Origin: Yarrowia lipolytica
Taxonomy: Eukaryota; Ascomycota; Dipodascomycetes; Dipodascales
Reading direction: 5' to 3'
DNA length: 64,000 nt
Assembly (NCBI RefSeq): GCF_001761485.1
Contig: NC_090772.1
Span: 2,416,501 to 2,480,500, forward strand
Of the stretch, positions 51,171 through 64,000 are shown piece after piece. The notes under the pieces are model-generated. The model did no database searches, was not told the origin of the DNA, and saw only the letters and a list, made by a program, of their open reading frames with translations. The translations under genes and the position numbers were made by a program. Each line of letters begins with the position of its first letter. Position 1 is the first letter of the stretch.

Positions 51171-52371
51171 GTTGATGATGGTGAGATGAAGAAAAGGTGT
51201 TGTTGGTTGTAGCGAGAGAGCAATTGAATCGTGTAATTGTGTCTCAATATTGCTGGCCAAGAGTTGATAGTAAGGCACTGCAAGTCTTGTGTGGGACGGT
51301 ACGGTATTTGACCCCACAAGCTGTAGATTCCTCCTGACTCACTGGAGCCATGAAACGACAAGACCAAGTCACGTGAAAGAAGCAAAAAGTGGTCAACTAC
51401 CAAAGAAACAACAGAGCGATCCAATCACGGCGCCTCCAGCCCGTTATCTGTGGTATTAATCCGGCCTAGAACGTGACTCCAGTGTCTCAAAAGAGACATA
51501 CATGCTTCAACTTATGCATATCTATGCGGCTCAAAGCTTGGCAGTTGGCACATATAGTGACGATAGAACCAGATTGAATGTAGATATGGGGGTTTAAAGG
51601 GCTTCTTTTGGTCAATAATGGAAGATAAATGTAATTTTCTCTTTTCTTCCGTTCAAAATGGGCAATTTGACGTGTTTTAGCTCCATCTACATGACGTCAC
51701 TACCCCACCCAAAAAGCTTGGCTCACGTATAACAGCCGGCTTTCGGCCCAATCGTACTCAACATCGAGTGATTACTGTATGTACGGTACCTGTTTGTTTA
51801 ACCGGATCTAAGTTGATTCATGGACTGATTCCGTCGGGGTTCAATCGGATACTACTTGTAGCAAGCACACTTGCCAATACTTGGCCGTACTCACTATTTC
51901 GAACTAGAGGAGCCGGGTGAACTCGAGGCTTAGTCTCGACATGGTATCTACAACATTCCACTTGTAGAAATCATTAACAGAGCAAGTTCAGCAGCTAGAG
52001 GACAGTCATCGACTTGCCTAGCTCTCAATATTGAGAGGACCATGTATGATCTTCAACAGAAATTTTTGATGATTCGGCGACAAATCTCGTACCAAACTCG
52101 TAGACTCTGAAGAGCTAACTATTTTGAACTTGAGAATACTCGGACTATGGCTTCAACCCTTGGCATCCCTTGCAGTTCTTTTAGCAGCTACAAGTAGTTT
52201 CACCATGCTCAAATGTCTGGCCACGATTTAACTGATCTACAGTGTCCGTCTACAGTGTCCGTCTACAGTGTCCGTCTACAGTGTCCGTCTACAATACTAC
52301 ACCGTCGCCATGTCATCAAGTCAAATCAACTCATATATTCATCATATGTACAATATTTACAAACACTCCGC
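51171..52371. other. Spacer, no supported gene
   Basis: Only short frames. A 13-base minisatellite lies just past the SSC1 stop (52236-52293). The region otherwise carries A/T-rich but featureless sequence. Confidence 0.6.
52236..52293. repeat. CTACAGTGTCCGT minisatellite
   Basis: Four perfect 13-base units, about 80 bases beyond the 3' end of SSC1. Confidence 0.9.
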
Positions 52372-54627
52372 TTACTCCTTCTTCTCGTCGTTCTCAGAGT
52401 TGTTGGCGGCCTTGTCCTTGTAGACCTTCTCGAAGAGCTTGAGAGAAGCCTCCTGGAGAGCATCAGTCTTGGTCTTGAGGTCAGTGGGGTTGACATCCTC
52501 ACCACCCTGGATTCGAGCAACGGACTCTCGGAGCTCAGCAATCTGGGCCTTGACCTTCTCGGCCTCGGCCTTGTCAATCTGGGCCTCGAACTCGTTCATG
52601 GAAGACTCGGTGTCGTTGCAGATCTGGTCGGTTCGGTTAGCAGCCTCAACGGACTCTCGTCGAGCCTTATCCTGCTCCTTGTACTTCTCGGCATCGTTGA
52701 CCATCTTCTCAATCTCGGTATCAGAGAGACCGGAAGATCCGGCAACGGTGATGGAGGAGTCCTTGTTGGTGGCCTTGTCTCGGGCAGAGACGTTGATGAT
52801 TCCATCGGCATCAATGTCGAAAGAAACCTCAATCTGGGGGACACCCTTGGGGGCGGGGGGGATACCGGCAAGAGTGAAGTTACCGATCAGCTTGTTGTCT
52901 CGAACAAGCTCTCGCTCACCCTGGAAAACTCGGATCTCGACGGAAGTCTGACCCTGAGCGGCGGTAGAGAAGATCTGGGACTTCTTGGTGGGGATAGGAG
53001 AGTTTCGGTTGATGAGTCGAGTGAAGACACCACCGAGAGTCTCGATACCAAGAGACAGAGGAGTAACATCAAGCAGGAGGACATCAGTGACCTCACCGGC
53101 AAGAACAGCACCCTGGATAGAAGCACCAATGGCAACAGCCTCATCGGGGTTGACGGACTTGTTGGGCTCCTTGCCAAAGATGGACTTGACAGTCTCAATG
53201 ACCTTGGGCATTCGGGTCATACCTCCAACGAGGATAACCTCATCAATCTGGGAAGAGGTGACACCGGCATCCTTGAGGGCCTTCTCGACGGGCTCGACGG
53301 TTCGCTTAATAAGAGGACCGACAAGAGTCTCGAGCTGGGATCGGGACAGCTTGGTGTTGATGTGCTTAGGGCCGGAGGCGTCAGCAGTGATGAAAGGAAG
53401 GTTGATCTCGGTGTTGGAGGTGGAAGACAGCTCGGTCTTGGCCTTCTCAACGGCCTCTCGGATTCGCTGGATGGCCATTCGGTCACCAGAGAGGTCAATG
53501 CCGTTGTCCTTCTTGAACTGGTCAACAAGGTGTCGGACAAGAACGATATCGAAATCCTCACCACCAAGGTGAGTGTCACCGTTGGTAGACTTGACCTCGA
53601 AGACACCCTTCTGGATCTCGAGAATGGAGATATCGAAAGTACCTCCACCAAGATCGAAGACGGCAACAACCTTGTCGTCGTTCTTCTCAAGACCGTAAGC
53701 GAGAGCGGCGGCGGTAGGCTCGTTGACAACTCGCAGAACGTTCAGGCCAACAATCTGACCAGCGTCCTTGGTGGCCTGTCGCTGGGAATCGTTGAAGTAG
53801 GCGGGGACGGTGACCACGGCGTTCTTGATGGTCTTTCCGAGGTAGCCCTCGGCGGTCTCCTTCATCTTGTTGAGGACGAAACCTCCAATCTGGGCGGGGG
53901 AGTAAGTCTCGCCCTGGGCCTCAAGCCAAGCGTCACCGTTAGAGTGCTTGACAATCTTGAAGGGCACCTGCTTGATGTCGTTCTGGACCTCGGGGTCCTC
54001 GAATCGTCGACCAATCAGACGCTTGGTGGCGAACAGGGTGTTCTCGGGGTTGACAACGGCCTGTCGCTTGGCGGGGACACCGACAAGTCGCTCGCCGTCC
54101 TTGGTGAAGGCAACGACGGAGGGGGTGGTTCGGTTACCCTCAGCGTTCTCAATCACCTTGGGGGTCTTACCCTCCATGATGGCGACGGCGGAGTTGGTGG
54201 TACCGAGATCGATACCGATGACGGCACCCTGGACCTTTCCAGAGTTGAATCGCTGCTGGAAGGCGGGGAGTCGGGACTGGGTTAGTACGATGCGGAGGGT
54301 GTGGGTGGATGGTGTTGATCGATCACCGATTGATTGAGAGCCATGGCTCACTGAGGTGGCACATTATAGGGGAAAATTTGCAGACAAGACATCAAGCATG
54401 TCGCGGGGGCAAGCACAACACAAATGCACAATTGTCATTGTCTGTGTGTCCATCGTCTGTCGCATGCCATCTTGTCGTTTGTGTGTTCCGCAGAAATCCG
54501 GATCGTAAGCCCAAGGTGAAAAAGCCCCCCTCAGTATGTTCCATCAATCGCTCAATTCGCCGCGGGATCCTCCCGGTCGCATACTCACGGTTCTCAGAGC
54601 AGAACGGGCAAATCTAGAAGCCAACAT
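52372..54627 (-). CDS. SSC1: Mitochondrial Hsp70
   Basis: Two exons on the minus strand: exon 1 54627-54589 ([13 protein letters not shown]), intron 54588-54277 (312 bases, GTGAGTATG to TACTAACCCAG) and exon 2 54276-52372. The 647-residue protein starts with a basic presequence (about 1-24) and continues [20 protein letters not shown], the DnaK ATPase opening. [14 protein letters not shown], the substrate-binding region [14 protein letters not shown] and [20 protein letters not shown] follow, and almost every block is the same as in yeast Ssc1. The enzyme is the ATP-driven motor of protein import and the main folding chaperone of the mitochondrial matrix. The gene is very highly biased in codon use. 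An unspliced reading would have no ATG and no targeting signal. Confidence 0.97.
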
Positions 54628-55879: not shown

Positions 55880-56006
55880 TTTTCTTTTTTACATTTTTCC
55901 CAATTTTCATTTTTCATTTTTCATTTTCATTTTTTATTTTTATTTTTATTTTTATTTTTTATTTTATTTTATTTTTATTTTTATTTATTTTTAATTTTTA
56001 TTTTAA

Positions 56007-56037
<31 letters not shown>

Positions 56038-56150
56038 TTTATTTTTATTTTTATTTTATTTTTATTTTTATTTTTTTTTATTTTTATTTTTATTTTATTA
56101 ACTTTTCATTATTTTTATCATTATTTTTTATTTTCAATTTTCAATTTATT
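55880..56150. repeat. Long TTTTTA-type simple repeat
   Basis: About 250 bases with almost no G or C: runs of TTTTTA and TTTTA, interrupted by single C or A. Likely unstable in length. Confidence 0.95.
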
Positions 56151-56581: not shown

Positions 56582-58678
56582 ATGTTCACGTCCATCCCCA
56601 TCATCGACCTGTCAGAGGACACCCCAACCATCCTCGCTAAACTGCGACCAGCTCTTTTCAACGTGGGTTTCTGCTACATCAAAAACTATGGAGTGGACCC
56701 TGGTCTCATCCAACGAGTGACCGAGCTCGGGAAACAACTCTTTGATCTTCCCCAAACCGAGAAACAACGTATCGACATGTCCAACTCGCCCCATTTCCTC
56801 GGATACTCGCGTCTCGGAGACGAAATCACCAAAAACCAGACAGACTGGCGCGAACAAATGGATCTGGCCACCGAACTGCCTGCCCCCAAGGACGACGAAC
56901 CGCTCTACAGACGCCTGCGAGGCCCCAACCAATGGCCTGATGAAAAGCTCATTCCTGGCTTCAGACAGGCCTTTGAGGCGTACATTGAACAAATGGGCCC
57001 CGTGTCGATCCACTTTGTGTCTCTGATTGCACAAGCTCTGGGTTTGGAGGCGGATGCCTTCGCGCACCTGTTTGAGCAACACCAGCAGCACAAGCTCAAG
57101 GTGGTGCGGTATCCCGATGTGGACGAGGTCAAGGTGAAGGTTGAGGGAGAGACAAAGGTCAAGGGAGGTGTCAAGAAAGAAGATCCAGTTGATATTGATG
57201 TCAAGCTGGAGCCTCAGGAGTCCTCCCTACATGCAGACGAGACTAAGGTGAAACTGGAGGATGAGCCTGTTGAGATCAAACAAGATGATGATTCCATCGA
57301 ACGAAAGGCATCCGTCAAGCAGGAGTGCCATGCCGAACGCTCCATCTACACTCAAGGAGTGGGGCCTCACAAGGACTCGGAACTGACATCTTACCTGCTG
57401 CAATGCACTCCACATAGAGGTCTCCAGGTGCTCAATTCCAACAACGAATGGATCGATGTGCCACCGATTGAAGGCACCTTGGTGGTGGCTATGGGTCAAG
57501 CCATGGAGGCTCTGACTCGGGGATACTGTGTGAGCACCACTCATCGAGTTCTAGCGCCCGAGGCTGGGTCTGGTTCCCGATTCTCAATTCCCTTCTTCCA
57601 GGGAATTTCCTATGATGCCAACTTCCGAGACTTCAAACTGCCTTCTGAGGTAGAAGAGAGTCTCAAGAAGAACAAGGTGGTGACTGAAGACACGGGTCAG
57701 TACAGACACGACATGTTCAGCAATATTGGAGAAGCCACGTTCATGAACCGGATCAGAAGTCATCCTACAGTTGCCAAACGATGGTATAAAGACGTGATTG
57801 ATGTCACCAAGCTGGACACCTTGCCCAGAGTGCTCAGCCGTCTCAGCCGCATCTTCGCAGGAGCTGAGAAAACAATGATGTTCCACAACTCGCCTCTTCC
57901 TCTCAGTTTCGACGACTTTGCCAGATCGGTTCTTGAGTACTCGCACGAGAAGGTGACTCGAGATGATCTTTCACAGCTCTTCGCTCTCTGGCCCAATTTG
58001 TACAGAACCGAGGTTCGACGCGATGGAATGCTCATGTTGTCTCTTGAGAATATCACCTCTGTGGCTCTTACGCAGACAAGAGACGCTCGTCAGAAGCAGT
58101 TTGACGACCTGTGTTGGAAATGGCTCAGACAACATCCGGTCACGTGGTCCAAAGGTCCAGAAATTGATCAGAAGAAGCAGTCATCTTTTACGAAGAAGAG
58201 AGGCATTTCTGAAACTGCAGAGTCGCTCAGAAAGACTCCGGTCACGAAGCAGCGCATTTTCAAACTGGCTAAGCCCGATACCAAGCTTGGAGGCACGGTG
58301 TTGGAGCGGATCAAGGCCCGGAAAGCGGCTTCGGCGCATCTTAACAAGAAGTCCGAACAGGAGGAGAAGTCTGAGTCCCAACAGCGGTTCCTCGACTCCA
58401 ATATCCCACGAGTGGTAGATGTGCTTGTGGGGGCTGGTAAGGGTAACAGTACATCTATTCCCATGGATAGGGCTATTCGAATGGTGAATGACTCTGTGAG
58501 AAGGAACTTGTCGGAGAAGGAGGCAAGAGCCATTCTGGTGAGAGTCAGCCAAGTTGTTCCCAGTTTCTGTAAGCTGGTAGAGGTAGGAGACCAGGCGGTG
58601 TTGAGACTTGGTAAGAAGACGAGAGGAGCGGTTCAGGCGGAGTTGAGGGAGTTTGAGGAGTCTGAACATTCAAAGTAA
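56582..58678 (+). CDS. CDT1: CDT1 replication licensing factor with an N-terminal 2OG-Fe(II) dioxygenase-like domain
   Basis: Encodes 698 residues; first ATG gives MFTSIPIIDLSEDTP. Residues 5-120 look like the N-terminal part of isopenicillin-synthase-type dioxygenases (VGFCYIKNYGV, GYSRLGDE). The jelly-roll core (about 255-345) has GPHKDSEL, THRVLAPEAG and SRFSIPFF, that is H263, D265 and H321 for iron and R333-x-S335 for 2-oxoglutarate. A charged insertion, about 179-255, precedes it. The rest matches Cdt1: a middle winged helix (about 408-520; PLSFDDFARSVLEYSHEKVT) and a C-terminal one (about 600-690; LSEKEARAILVRVSQVVPSF). Cdt1 brings the MCM helicase to origins before S phase. In yeast Cdt1 an N-terminal dioxygenase-like fold is known and thought inactive. 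Here the ligands appear intact. No intron seen. Confidence 0.88.
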   Translation: MFTSIPIIDLSEDTPTILAKLRPALFNVGFCYIKNYGVDPGLIQRVTELGKQLFDLPQTEKQRIDMSNSPHFLGYSRLGDEITKNQTDWREQMDLATELPAPKDDEPLYRRLRGPNQWPDEKLIPGFRQAFEAYIEQMGPVSIHFVSLIAQALGLEADAFAHLFEQHQQHKLKVVRYPDVDEVKVKVEGETKVKGGVKKEDPVDIDVKLEPQESSLHADETKVKLEDEPVEIKQDDDSIERKASVKQECHAERSIYTQGVGPHKDSELTSYLLQCTPHRGLQVLNSNNEWIDVPPIEGTLVVAMGQAMEALTRGYCVSTTHRVLAPEAGSGSRFSIPFFQGISYDANFRDFKLPSEVEESLKKNKVVTEDTGQYRHDMFSNIGEATFMNRIRSHPTVAKRWYKDVIDVTKLDTLPRVLSRLSRIFAGAEKTMMFHNSPLPLSFDDFARSVLEYSHEKVTRDDLSQLFALWPNLYRTEVRRDGMLMLSLENITSVALTQTRDARQKQFDDLCWKWLRQHPVTWSKGPEIDQKKQSSFTKKRGISETAESLRKTPVTKQRIFKLAKPDTKLGGTVLERIKARKAASAHLNKKSEQEEKSESQQRFLDSNIPRVVDVLVGAGKGNSTSIPMDRAIRMVNDSVRRNLSEKEARAILVRVSQVVPSFCKLVEVGDQAVLRLGKKTRGAVQAELREFEESEHSK

Positions 58679-58842: not shown

Positions 58843-59472
58843 TTAGATGTCGAAACCAAAGCCCTTCATGCACTCCTTGTAGGCGGAGATGAGAGGCTTG
58901 CATTTGTCGGAGTCGACGCCGTTAAAGAGCAGACACTCGTCTCGAGCGGCCTTCTCGTCCTTGCACACGCAGCAGGGCTTGGGCTTGTCGCCGGAAGGGA
59001 TGGTGGTGTTCTTTCCGTCCTTGGTTTCAGATGCTAAGTTAGTATGGGTTCATGGAGGAGTGTTGACTTGGACGTCAGCGGCCCTAGACCACGCGTCGCA
59101 AACAATCTGAACATGCACCGGTCTGGAGCTGGCTGGCTTTGTAGCATGGGAATGTCATTTTGTACAAAACGGCACGACACAGCCGTCTCGACCTGCGTAG
59201 CTCTGAACACCTATCTGAACTGTTTGAGCTGTCTGAACTGTCTGAACTGTCTAAATTGTCTGAATTGTCTTAACTGTCTGAACTGTCGGAACTGTCTGAA
59301 CAACTGTCTGGATTCTCCCCATATTTGTCCGGTACTCCGTGCAACTACGGTCCTGTGTCTGTGCTTTTGTGATCCGTTTGGGTCTGTGACGCTCTCCGCT
59401 GGTCTCGCTGGTCTCGCTGGTCTCGCTGGTCACCCCTCACCAGATATACTCACTGTTGGCAATAAGAGGCAT
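58843..59472 (-). CDS. COX17: Mitochondrial copper chaperone
   Basis: Two exons on the minus strand: exon 1 59472-59454 (MPLIAN plus one base), intron 59453-59034 (420 bases, GTGAGTATATC to TACTAACTTAG) and exon 2 59033-58843. The 69-residue product ends KECMKGFGFDI. KPKPCCVCKDEK carries the copper-binding C27, C28 and C30, and the twin CX9C pairs are C30-C40 and C51-C61, exactly as in Cox17. The protein works in the intermembrane space, passing copper to Sco1 and Cox11 for cytochrome oxidase. The second Cys of the CCxC motif also closes a disulfide through Mia40-Erv1. The gene is too short for routine frame-finding because of the intron. Confidence 0.95.
59215..59300. repeat. CTGAACTGT minisatellite inside the COX17 intron
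   Basis: About nine 9-base units of CTGAACTGT and close variants. A second 9-base repeat, GGTCTCGCT (59401-59430), lies near the intron's donor end. Confidence 0.9.
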
Positions 59473-62423: not shown

Positions 62424-64000
62424 CTACAGTTTTTGCCTCTTGTAAGCCTTCTGCTCCTCTCCAACTCTCTTGAGAGACTTCATGGTGACATAGAAGAAGT
62501 CTCGGAGACCTTTCAGGCCGTATTTGTTGGCAGCAAAGTCCAACAGTCCCTGCTTGTACTGCTGATTAGTAAGTTTCAGCCCTCCTCTGTACTCGTTATC
62601 AACCAGAGATTGGGCAGTAACTGGACCCTCGTGTCTTCGCTCAATGTCTGCTTCCTCCTCAAGACTCCACAGATATACCGCTGCAATGTGCGACATTGCT
62701 GAGGACATTGTCAGTCCGAAAACAGTATCTATCGTCGCCGGGAATCGTAGCAGGGAAGACAAGGATTCGAGGAACTGTGAATCCAACTGTAGGTGTCTGT
62801 GGCTCCATAGAGCACAGCTAAGTTCAGTGACAGCTGTTTTGTAGCTCTCGGAAGACAAAGACACGTCTCTGAGAAGAAATAGCACACGTGCAAGTCGCGA
62901 TAACACGGAGGGATCTGCCTGTGCAGTGTAATACTGGGTGACTGAGAGCGAAGGGATTAACGGACGTGTAGGGGTAGTCTTCACGGTGAAGTAAGCTGCT
63001 GTTTCGTAGTAAGACAGGGTCGCAGATACTGGAACCTTGTAGACGAGACTGGAAACTGTCGAGTGGATTTCTCGTGCACATGATTCACGTCCAGGACCCT
63101 CAGTGTGCAGTGTGGACCAGTTGTTCAGCAGCTTGGTGAGACACTCGACCAGTTCAGTGGGATGGTTAGTTAGTTTTTCCAGAATGGCCTGTCTGAAGGT
63201 GATGGGGTTGAGTAGAGGCAGTTGGGCAAGAAGTGTCCAGGTGGTTGGTGGGAGAGTGTCGCTATTCTTTATATGTTTGACTAGACAGCTCACCACAGCC
63301 AGTGGCATGGTCTTTGTGTATTGCATGTATTCCAGCACTTTCTTTTCGTCCATGTTTTGCGTGAGCCATCGGTTGAGACGCTGGTCATCTAGCTGGGTGG
63401 CTTTAAGGTGAAACACTCGTGCCAGAGTCGAGTTTCCAACCACATTAGGAAGTTGCTTCGGTATGGGTTTATCGATTGCAGCAACTATTTCTCGCAACTG
63501 GGCCGTGCTCTGATACAAGATGGGTTTGTTTGTGTTTCCAAACACGTGAATGACCTTCTCCAGCAGCTTTTCGTCAGGTGAGACTGTGCTGTGTTTGCTT
63601 TCGCTCCATTTCATGTCATTTGGAGCCTGTAGGAACGGCTTGAACTGCGAGTACAAGGTCAGTAATGCATCCACGTAGCCAGACGTGCGAGGATCTCGGT
63701 TCTTGTTCTTGATCTGGAGCAGGGTATCGTATCTCCATGGTTGTACGGACTCGGAGGTGGTGCTGATAAACAGCAAGGAACAGAGGTAGGGGCGCAAAGA
63801 CTCGTAGTTGAGGTAGTTGAATAGCACCGTGTACAGCGAGTTGATGATCTGGCTGTCTTCCAGGAACGGGTGCACGGTGCAGAGCCATTTCATGAGTGCT
63901 ATTTGGGTCTTGAGACTCGGTTTCGAAGGTGACAATCCGAGATTGGAAGAGATGCGAATGACCGTGCGGGAGAGAACCGGTTTGTTGGGGATCAAGAGGC
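62424..64000 (-). CDS. CTF3: CENP-I/Mis6 kinetochore protein (CTF3), truncated at the window edge
   Basis: The C-terminal 525 residues are visible; the start lies beyond the right edge and no ATG near the edge should be taken as the start. LMKWLCTVHPFLEDSQIINS, then YTVLFNYLNYESLRPYLCSL and LLFISTTSESVQPWRYDTLL, match the conserved helical repeat region of Mis6/CENP-I. The protein ends with KVGEEQKAYKRQKL-like basic residues, a probable nuclear signal. CENP-I is part of the inner kinetochore CCAN, alongside CENP-H and CENP-K, and helps load the centromeric histone. The identification rests on the helical pattern of one region, so it is good but not certain. Confidence 0.78.
   Translation of the reverse strand, partial: LLIPNKPVLSRTVIRISSNLGLSPSKPSLKTQIALMKWLCTVHPFLEDSQIINSLYTVLFNYLNYESLRPYLCSLLFISTTSESVQPWRYDTLLQIKNKNRDPRTSGYVDALLTLYSQFKPFLQAPNDMKWSESKHSTVSPDEKLLEKVIHVFGNTNKPILYQSTAQLREIVAAIDKPIPKQLPNVVGNSTLARVFHLKATQLDDQRLNRWLTQNMDEKKVLEYMQYTKTMPLAVVSCLVKHIKNSDTLPPTTWTLLAQLPLLNPITFRQAILEKLTNHPTELVECLTKLLNNWSTLHTEGPGRESCAREIHSTVSSLVYKVPVSATLSYYETAAYFTVKTTPTRPLIPSLSVTQYYTAQADPSVLSRLARVLFLLRDVSLSSESYKTAVTELSCALWSHRHLQLDSQFLESLSSLLRFPATIDTVFGLTMSSAMSHIAAVYLWSLEEEADIERRHEGPVTAQSLVDNEYRGGLKLTNQQYKQGLLDFAANKYGLKGLRDFFYVTMKSLKRVGEEQKAYKRQKL

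Follow-up and report, generated by a model that had tools for sequence, protein, structure and literature searches.

In the genome of Yarrowia lipolytica (NCBI RefSeq assembly GCF_001761485.1), we analysed a stretch of 64,000 nucleotides (contig NC_090772.1, positions 2,416,501 to 2,480,500 of the forward strand), referred to as the window herein and used for all coordinates of the gene and its neighbours. At 56582–58678 on the plus strand, the window holds CDT1 fused to a 2-oxoglutarate (2OG) oxygenase. According to the list of open reading frames (ORFs), this single-exon gene is a frame of 698 codons that runs from an ATG start to a TAA stop, and an intron-free reading suffices for the 698-residue product, Yarrowia Cdt1. 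The N-terminal part matches DIOX_N (PF14226) at residues 5–121 (56594–56944; Pfam E = 4.1e-33, 114.9 bits, cut-off 27.3) and 2OG-FeII_Oxy (PF03171) at residues 257–340 (E = 2.6e-17, 63.4 bits, cut-off 23), both oxygenase family profiles exceeding their curated cut-offs. The Pfam match, conservation and the predicted local distance difference test (pLDDT) delimit a catalytic double-stranded beta-helix core at residues 258–345 (57353–57616), and the fold comparison found a double-stranded beta-helix in the oxygenase half. NCBIfam assigned no family to any of the three proteins tried.

Behind this domain, the original prediction, which was made from the DNA letters and an ORF list alone, had placed two Cdt1 winged helices. 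The C-terminal one (CDT1_C, PF16679; residues 573–669, 58298–58588) passes the Pfam cut-off of 25 with 47.1 bits (E = 3.6e-12). The middle one, at about residues 413–520 (57818–58141), leans on alignment and fold, as the CDT1 model (PF08839) matches residues 414–480 with 21.8 bits (E = 2.4e-4), just under its cut-off of 22.6. It is also backed by an alignment to residues 283–571 of Saccharomyces Cdt1 (E = 2.2e-5) and by a fold match.

A homologue search gave 501 matches among 8000 scored candidates, of which the best 120 were used. Within these 120, six further fused Yarrowia-type proteins (66–86% identity) and a truncated one, P0008, were followed by free-standing proteins, and the closest named matches were proteins of Yarrowia sp. 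E02 and B02, in line with the genus given in the original prediction. P0008 was rejected as a separate gene: as far as about residue 405 its sequence is that of P0006, and the two appear to be different models of one gene. The free-standing relatives are mostly about 383–400 residues long, and those named belong to the Pezizomycotina. They align across the whole oxygenase part and the C-terminal tail, for example P0012 (LLNRIKSHPDVGEKYYPDLL) with Yarrowia Cdt1 (FMNRIRSHPTVAKRWYKDVI). Since the free-standing proteins align through this tail, the fusion junction appears to lie near residue 412, and residues 346–412 (57617–57817) would be the C-terminal tail of the ancestral free-standing enzyme. 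A search with residues 370–698 alone found only eight proteins, the seven Yarrowia-type fusions (P0001–P0007, query included) and P0008, and the winged helices therefore seem too diverged for a word-based search.

In a search for long proteins, in which a length-extended query was scored on residues 1–412, 8 of the 84 hits carried a CDT1-type Pfam label: the seven Yarrowia-type proteins and P0125. The latter has 608 residues, comprises DIOX_N, 2OG-FeII_Oxy and CDT1 (E = 3.4e-11), keeps all ligands, and apparently has its C-terminus cut by the gene model. The remaining 76 hits lack a CDT1 label; in most of them, the oxygenase is joined to some other domain or stands free with extended termini. 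Among P0127–P0169, numerous relatives from Aspergillus, Penicillium and Talaromyces show such joins, and some of these proteins are named pectate lyase or transporter; some of these joins may be merged gene models, and their recurrence across species may merit attention.

The original prediction had numbered the putative iron ligands as H263-x-D265 (57368–57376) and H321 (57542–57544) and the 2OG-binding pair as R333-x-S335 (57578–57586). This numbering was right, as all five residues are invariant columns in A1, an alignment of 83 sequences hand-chosen from 196 after a motif scan whose regular expression was satisfied by 187 of 198 sequences. Since A1 omitted 113 of the 196 proteins, including all eight with a broken motif, we recounted the ligands over all 196. 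The five residues plus Y177 are all kept in 188 of the 196 aligned proteins (query included) and in all eight Cdt1 fusions (P0001–P0007 and P0125). Judged on these alignments, ligand retention is far beyond chance. Four of the eight exceptions (P0056, P0075, P0090 and P0123) miss part of H-x-D, probably through gene-model errors; the other four (P0181, P0190, P0191 and P0194) are without H321 and have R-x-S partly or wholly gone. None of the eight is a Cdt1 fusion.

We used the active site of Neurospora thymine-7-hydroxylase (T7H; PMC4787775) to map the predicted site by alignment. The iron ligands are identical at 3/3 positions and the 2OG contacts at 5/7, the changes being T7H R190 to K173 and T7H L192 to V175; in A1, the former column is K in 83/83 rows and the latter V in 77 and I in 6. 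The stretch K173 to Y177 (57098–57112), both ends of which are invariant in A1, would bind 2OG: K173 aligns with T7H R190, which contacts the C1-carboxylate, and R333, S335 and Y177 align with the C5-carboxylate binders R286, S288 and Y194. Beyond the ligands, 106 columns are at least 98% conserved in 75 free-standing-type proteins, and 95–97 of these are kept by the Yarrowia-type fusions and 82 by P0125. At 260 more variable columns, the majority residue is matched at 110–117 by the Yarrowia-type fusions and at 97 by P0125.

The best matches of a PDB sequence search were 9ovh (E = 4.6e-32), 6jyv (E = 1.3e-27) and the thymine dioxygenase 5c3o (E = 2.6e-17), while Saccharomyces Cdt1 covered only query residues 387–665 (E = 5.2e-5). 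By these comparisons, the oxygenase half is a regular isopenicillin-N-synthase (IPNS)-like 2OG oxygenase. No AlkB or JmjC protein occurred among the best 60, 50 and 50 entries of the sequence and fold comparisons, which leaves room for other families; a likeness to AlkB and JmjC has been drawn by fold for the Saccharomyces Cdt1 domain (PMC5490006). Thus, of the suggestion that this is a real hydroxylase or demethylase joined to the helicase loader, the Fe(II)/2OG oxygenase architecture joined to Cdt1 stands, with all its ligands kept under strong constraint, but the word demethylase finds no support among the entries compared, as sequence and fold place the domain with IPNS-like oxygenases of small molecules or free bases. 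Identity with thymine-7-hydroxylase itself was considered and rejected: the T7H substrate residues N87, E122, Y217 and F292 correspond to F72, P100, S266 and F339, so that one of four is kept, with the E122 column sitting in a poorly alignable stretch.

Comparison of P0001 with P0007, the most divergent of the Yarrowia-type proteins, revealed 97% identity in the core, 79% in residues 1–179, 73% in the tail and 29% in an insert described below; the two Cdt1 winged helices are 56% and 67% identical. Against P0002–P0006, the corresponding values are 98–99% for the core, 88–92% for residues 1–179 and 87–93% for the winged helices, and the core is the best-kept region in 6/6 comparisons with P0001. 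Because the core is held more tightly than the MCM-binding winged helices, a purely structural part appears unlikely.

Redundancy filtering reduced 198 sequences to 52 for a first tree; a second used 47, with five mostly long-branched sequences (YLsolo_L003, P0196, P0187, P0170 and P0194) dropped. In both trees, the fusions fall with the free-standing enzymes (92/79 in the 47-row tree), outside the group (100/98) of the paralogue L002. In the free tree, the long-branched P0125 stands apart from the Yarrowia fusions; a single fusion clade has p-AU 0.22 and is thus compatible with the data, so that the trees would allow one fusion event or two. We also searched the genome (20.5 Mb, six contigs) in six frames. 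As this search was intron-blind, its locus counts are lower bounds. With an E limit of 10, PF16679 and PF08839 (the latter below its cut-off) hit the fused gene alone, which makes it the only Cdt1 detected, and there are at least three DIOX_N loci: the fused copy, L002 and the more distant L003. Since L002 and L003 group elsewhere, no second member of the subfamily was detected beside the fused copy. L002 (match G000:C5:216276-216644) is a free-standing paralogue of 344 residues in which HKD, THQ and RHS are kept; in its tree group, P0181 and P0194 have degenerate ligands and six others examined keep them.

Between YPD179 and QGVGPH, where the free-standing enzymes have a short loop, Yarrowia Cdt1 carries a disordered K/E-rich insert (residues 180–257, 57119–57352) directly before the H-x-D strand, with pLDDT below 50 at residues 194–251. 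It contains five copies of the SUMO consensus [VIL]-K-x-E and one IKQD. In the seven Yarrowia-type proteins, the inserts are 64–95 residues long and hold 5–7 such motifs each, and there are none in the other 620–636 residues. Shuffles of the inserts with the same letters gave means of 0.36–0.53 motifs (p = 5e-5 for each protein, these tests not being independent). None of the other 66 ORFs of at least 100 residues in the window exceeds one motif per 80 residues; out of the 196 proteins, just the seven Yarrowia-type fusions and P0008 attain a density of three. The number of motifs is held across species and their positions shift. From its sequence, the insert looks like an array of SUMO acceptors under selection, or the pattern could instead stem from repeats of a short unit. 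P0125 has no such insert, although VKLE and VKKE occur in the linker between its domains. The genome search also gave eight matches to the SUMO/Rad60-SLD family, from which nothing can be inferred because this family does not separate SUMO from other ubiquitin-like proteins. Sumoylation of MCM has been described (PMC9232163) and serves as background only.

For Saccharomyces Cdt1, the iron-binding His and Asp are reported to be lost and the site occluded by a helical hairpin (Frigola 2017, PMC5490006), and the oxygenase-fold domain is described there as important for MCM loading. A 2019 paper (PMC6764820) likewise presents the domain as inactive and as needed for viability and loading, and on the inactive dioxygenase fold both sources agree with what the original prediction had stated. 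According to the same paper, the oxygenase fold is absent from S. pombe and metazoan Cdt1, so a fusion within the budding yeasts would fit; human CDT1 is depicted without the domain in PMC11634765. The alignment to Saccharomyces Cdt1 residues 283–571 starts inside the tail of the free-standing enzyme. When 23 Saccharomyces residues were compared with the tails of the 75 free-standing-type proteins, the match reached z 6.5 (p = 5e-5, the lowest value attainable with 20,000 shuffles), with 5–10 of 23 identities in the tail stretch and z 1.8 for the next best of 35 registers. This short tail match supports the view that the Saccharomyces domain derives from this enzyme, which was first fused and later lost its catalysis. 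With a profile of A1, Saccharomyces Cdt1 was absent from the best 60 of 80 PDB matches. We infer that the Saccharomyces and Yarrowia domains have a common origin, Yarrowia and P0125 representing lineages where the enzyme may have survived.

CDT1 is followed directly downstream by a convergent COX17 copper chaperone exon (PF05051, E = 5.5e-23) at 58846–59028 on the minus strand, and an A/T-only tract of 173 bases lies upstream at 55929–56101. An Hsp70 gene (E = 6.8e-259) at 52372–54177 on the minus strand is opposed by an open frame of 690 residues (52213–54285, plus strand), probably a non-coding by-product of codon usage. A CENP-I/Mis6-type kinetochore protein (PF07778, E = 1.2e-12) is encoded at 62424–63893 on the minus strand.

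The retained ligands, the T7H mapping, the conserved columns and the identity of the core suggest that the enzyme is probably alive. We consider it likely that this origin-licensing protein contains a competent oxygenase domain whose substrate is a small molecule or free base. Its ancestor would be a free-standing fungal Fe(II)/2OG oxygenase, still separate in the Pezizomycotina, that was joined ahead of two MCM-binding winged helices and never inactivated in Yarrowia and at least one other lineage, that of P0125. H263, D265 and H321 are predicted to hold Fe(II), and K173, Y177, R333 and S335 to hold 2OG. The domain would oxidise its substrate as the free-standing enzyme does, and may at the same time support MCM loading as the N-domain of Saccharomyces Cdt1 does; the latter would be the same enzyme after its death.

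Several observations weigh against a competent oxygenase within a genuine Cdt1. The CDT1 Pfam model falls under its cut-off, and the pLDDT blocks of the middle winged helix reach only 62–82. Only the comparison with P0007 shows a large difference between core and winged helices, and the proteins compared are related and thus not independent tests. That the ligands meet in one shared pocket is suggested by alignment and fold match; P0125 retains just 82 of the 106 conserved columns, the T7H substrate residues are mostly changed, and the Yarrowia-type fusions have altered 9–11 of the 106, none a ligand, for which reason the substrate may have changed. The original prediction had left open that the ligands are retained for structure only, in a part that serves MCM loading. 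Saccharomyces offers a precedent (PMC5490006) and ligand residues can also stabilise a fold, but the loading role in Saccharomyces does not need them (PMC5490006), the core is best kept throughout, and retention extends beyond the iron ligands to residues of the 2OG site. With the core 97% identical against 56% and 67% in the winged helices, and with kinship to a free-standing enzyme, we find such a pseudoenzyme improbable, and less likely than had been allowed. A fusion created by annotation or assembly from two adjacent genes could be suspected from the many long hits in which the oxygenase shares a chain with domains of other kinds (pectate lyase and epoxide hydrolase are among the names given), in part possibly merged neighbours. 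It is ruled out for practical purposes by the single uninterrupted frame in the raw DNA, by the same junction in seven proteins whose contigs differ in length together with the further diverged fusion P0125, and by the full-length fold match to Saccharomyces Cdt1.

Two other explanations are compatible with our statement, which concerns competence. The protein may be bifunctional but uncoupled, with an active metabolic oxygenase travelling with Cdt1 and oxygen, iron and 2OG having no effect on licensing. The fusion would then persist because both parts are needed and the enzyme has no separate copy. No source of the activity other than the fused copy was detected (the other two of three DIOX_N loci group elsewhere), and its closest relatives are free-standing, which by itself would account for the conservation. 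However, a licensing factor would generally be an odd carrier for a metabolic enzyme, and the Saccharomyces domain kept its loading role after catalysis was lost (PMC5490006, PMC6764820), so the two parts can become coupled; we regard the uncoupled protein as a serious candidate that falls somewhat short of an even chance. Alternatively, catalysis or the occupancy by 2OG and iron modulates MCM loading, or a licensing protein is hydroxylated. The physical fusion to Cdt1 (CDT1-type label in 8 of 84 hits), the importance of the Saccharomyces domain for MCM loading (PMC5490006) and viability (PMC6764820), and the regulatory-looking SUMO-motif loop just before the H-x-D strand point this way, yet the characterised families closest to it have small molecules or free bases as substrates (PMC4787775, PMC13083874), and because the free-standing relatives are unfused to Cdt1, the ancestral reaction was not Cdt1-specific. 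A regulatory oxygenase is thus a tentative proposal, to which the uncoupled protein is at least equal in likelihood. Bolder still, and rather unlikely in our judgement, Yarrowia Cdt1 could be a metabolite- and oxygen-responsive licensing factor in which an active 2OG oxygenase travels on the MCM-Cdt1 complex, its iron and 2OG occupancy or its reaction sets the efficiency of helicase loading, and the fast-changing SUMO-acceptor loop next to the active site provides a second control; Saccharomyces Cdt1 would then be its fossil, and the loading role of its N-domain a remnant of this coupling.

With a competent oxygenase in this position, the onset of DNA replication might be physically linked to an active enzyme that uses oxygen, and origin licensing is possibly coupled to oxygen, iron or 2OG in some fungi. 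In this lineage, no part of the licensing factor is better conserved than the catalytic core, and why Cdt1 carries an oxygenase fold becomes a directly testable question in Yarrowia, a tractable laboratory yeast. Cdt1 proteins whose N-domain has an oxygenase fold have been described; one whose active site is intact and strongly conserved, with free-standing kin, is apparently undescribed, and we found no description of a Cdt1 with intact ligands in the open-licence literature searched. Yarrowia Cdt1 can serve as the missing link: a version of the enzyme that is apparently alive, together with the free-standing family to which it is kin.

Among known systems, the Pezizomycotina free-standing IPNS-like oxygenases (such as P0011, P0012 and P0036) are 44–56% identical to Yarrowia Cdt1 in A1 and share its ligands and tail, but they are unfused to Cdt1 and lack the SUMO-motif insert; the database entries among the matches listed give no function for them. 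Neurospora T7H (5C3P-S), the ancestral ethylene-forming enzyme Anc357 (9OVH), the Pseudomonas IPNS-like protein 6JYV and TraH (9IG3-5) have the IPNS-like fold and the iron and 2OG sites in common with the Yarrowia domain, although their identity to it is 25–31% in the rows compared. Saccharomyces cerevisiae Cdt1/Tah11 (PDB 5ME9, 5V8F, 9GJP) has the same order of oxygenase-fold domain, middle winged helix and C-terminal winged helix, with a full-length fold match over 688 aligned columns; its iron-binding His and Asp are lost, whereas the ligands of Yarrowia Cdt1 are all present.
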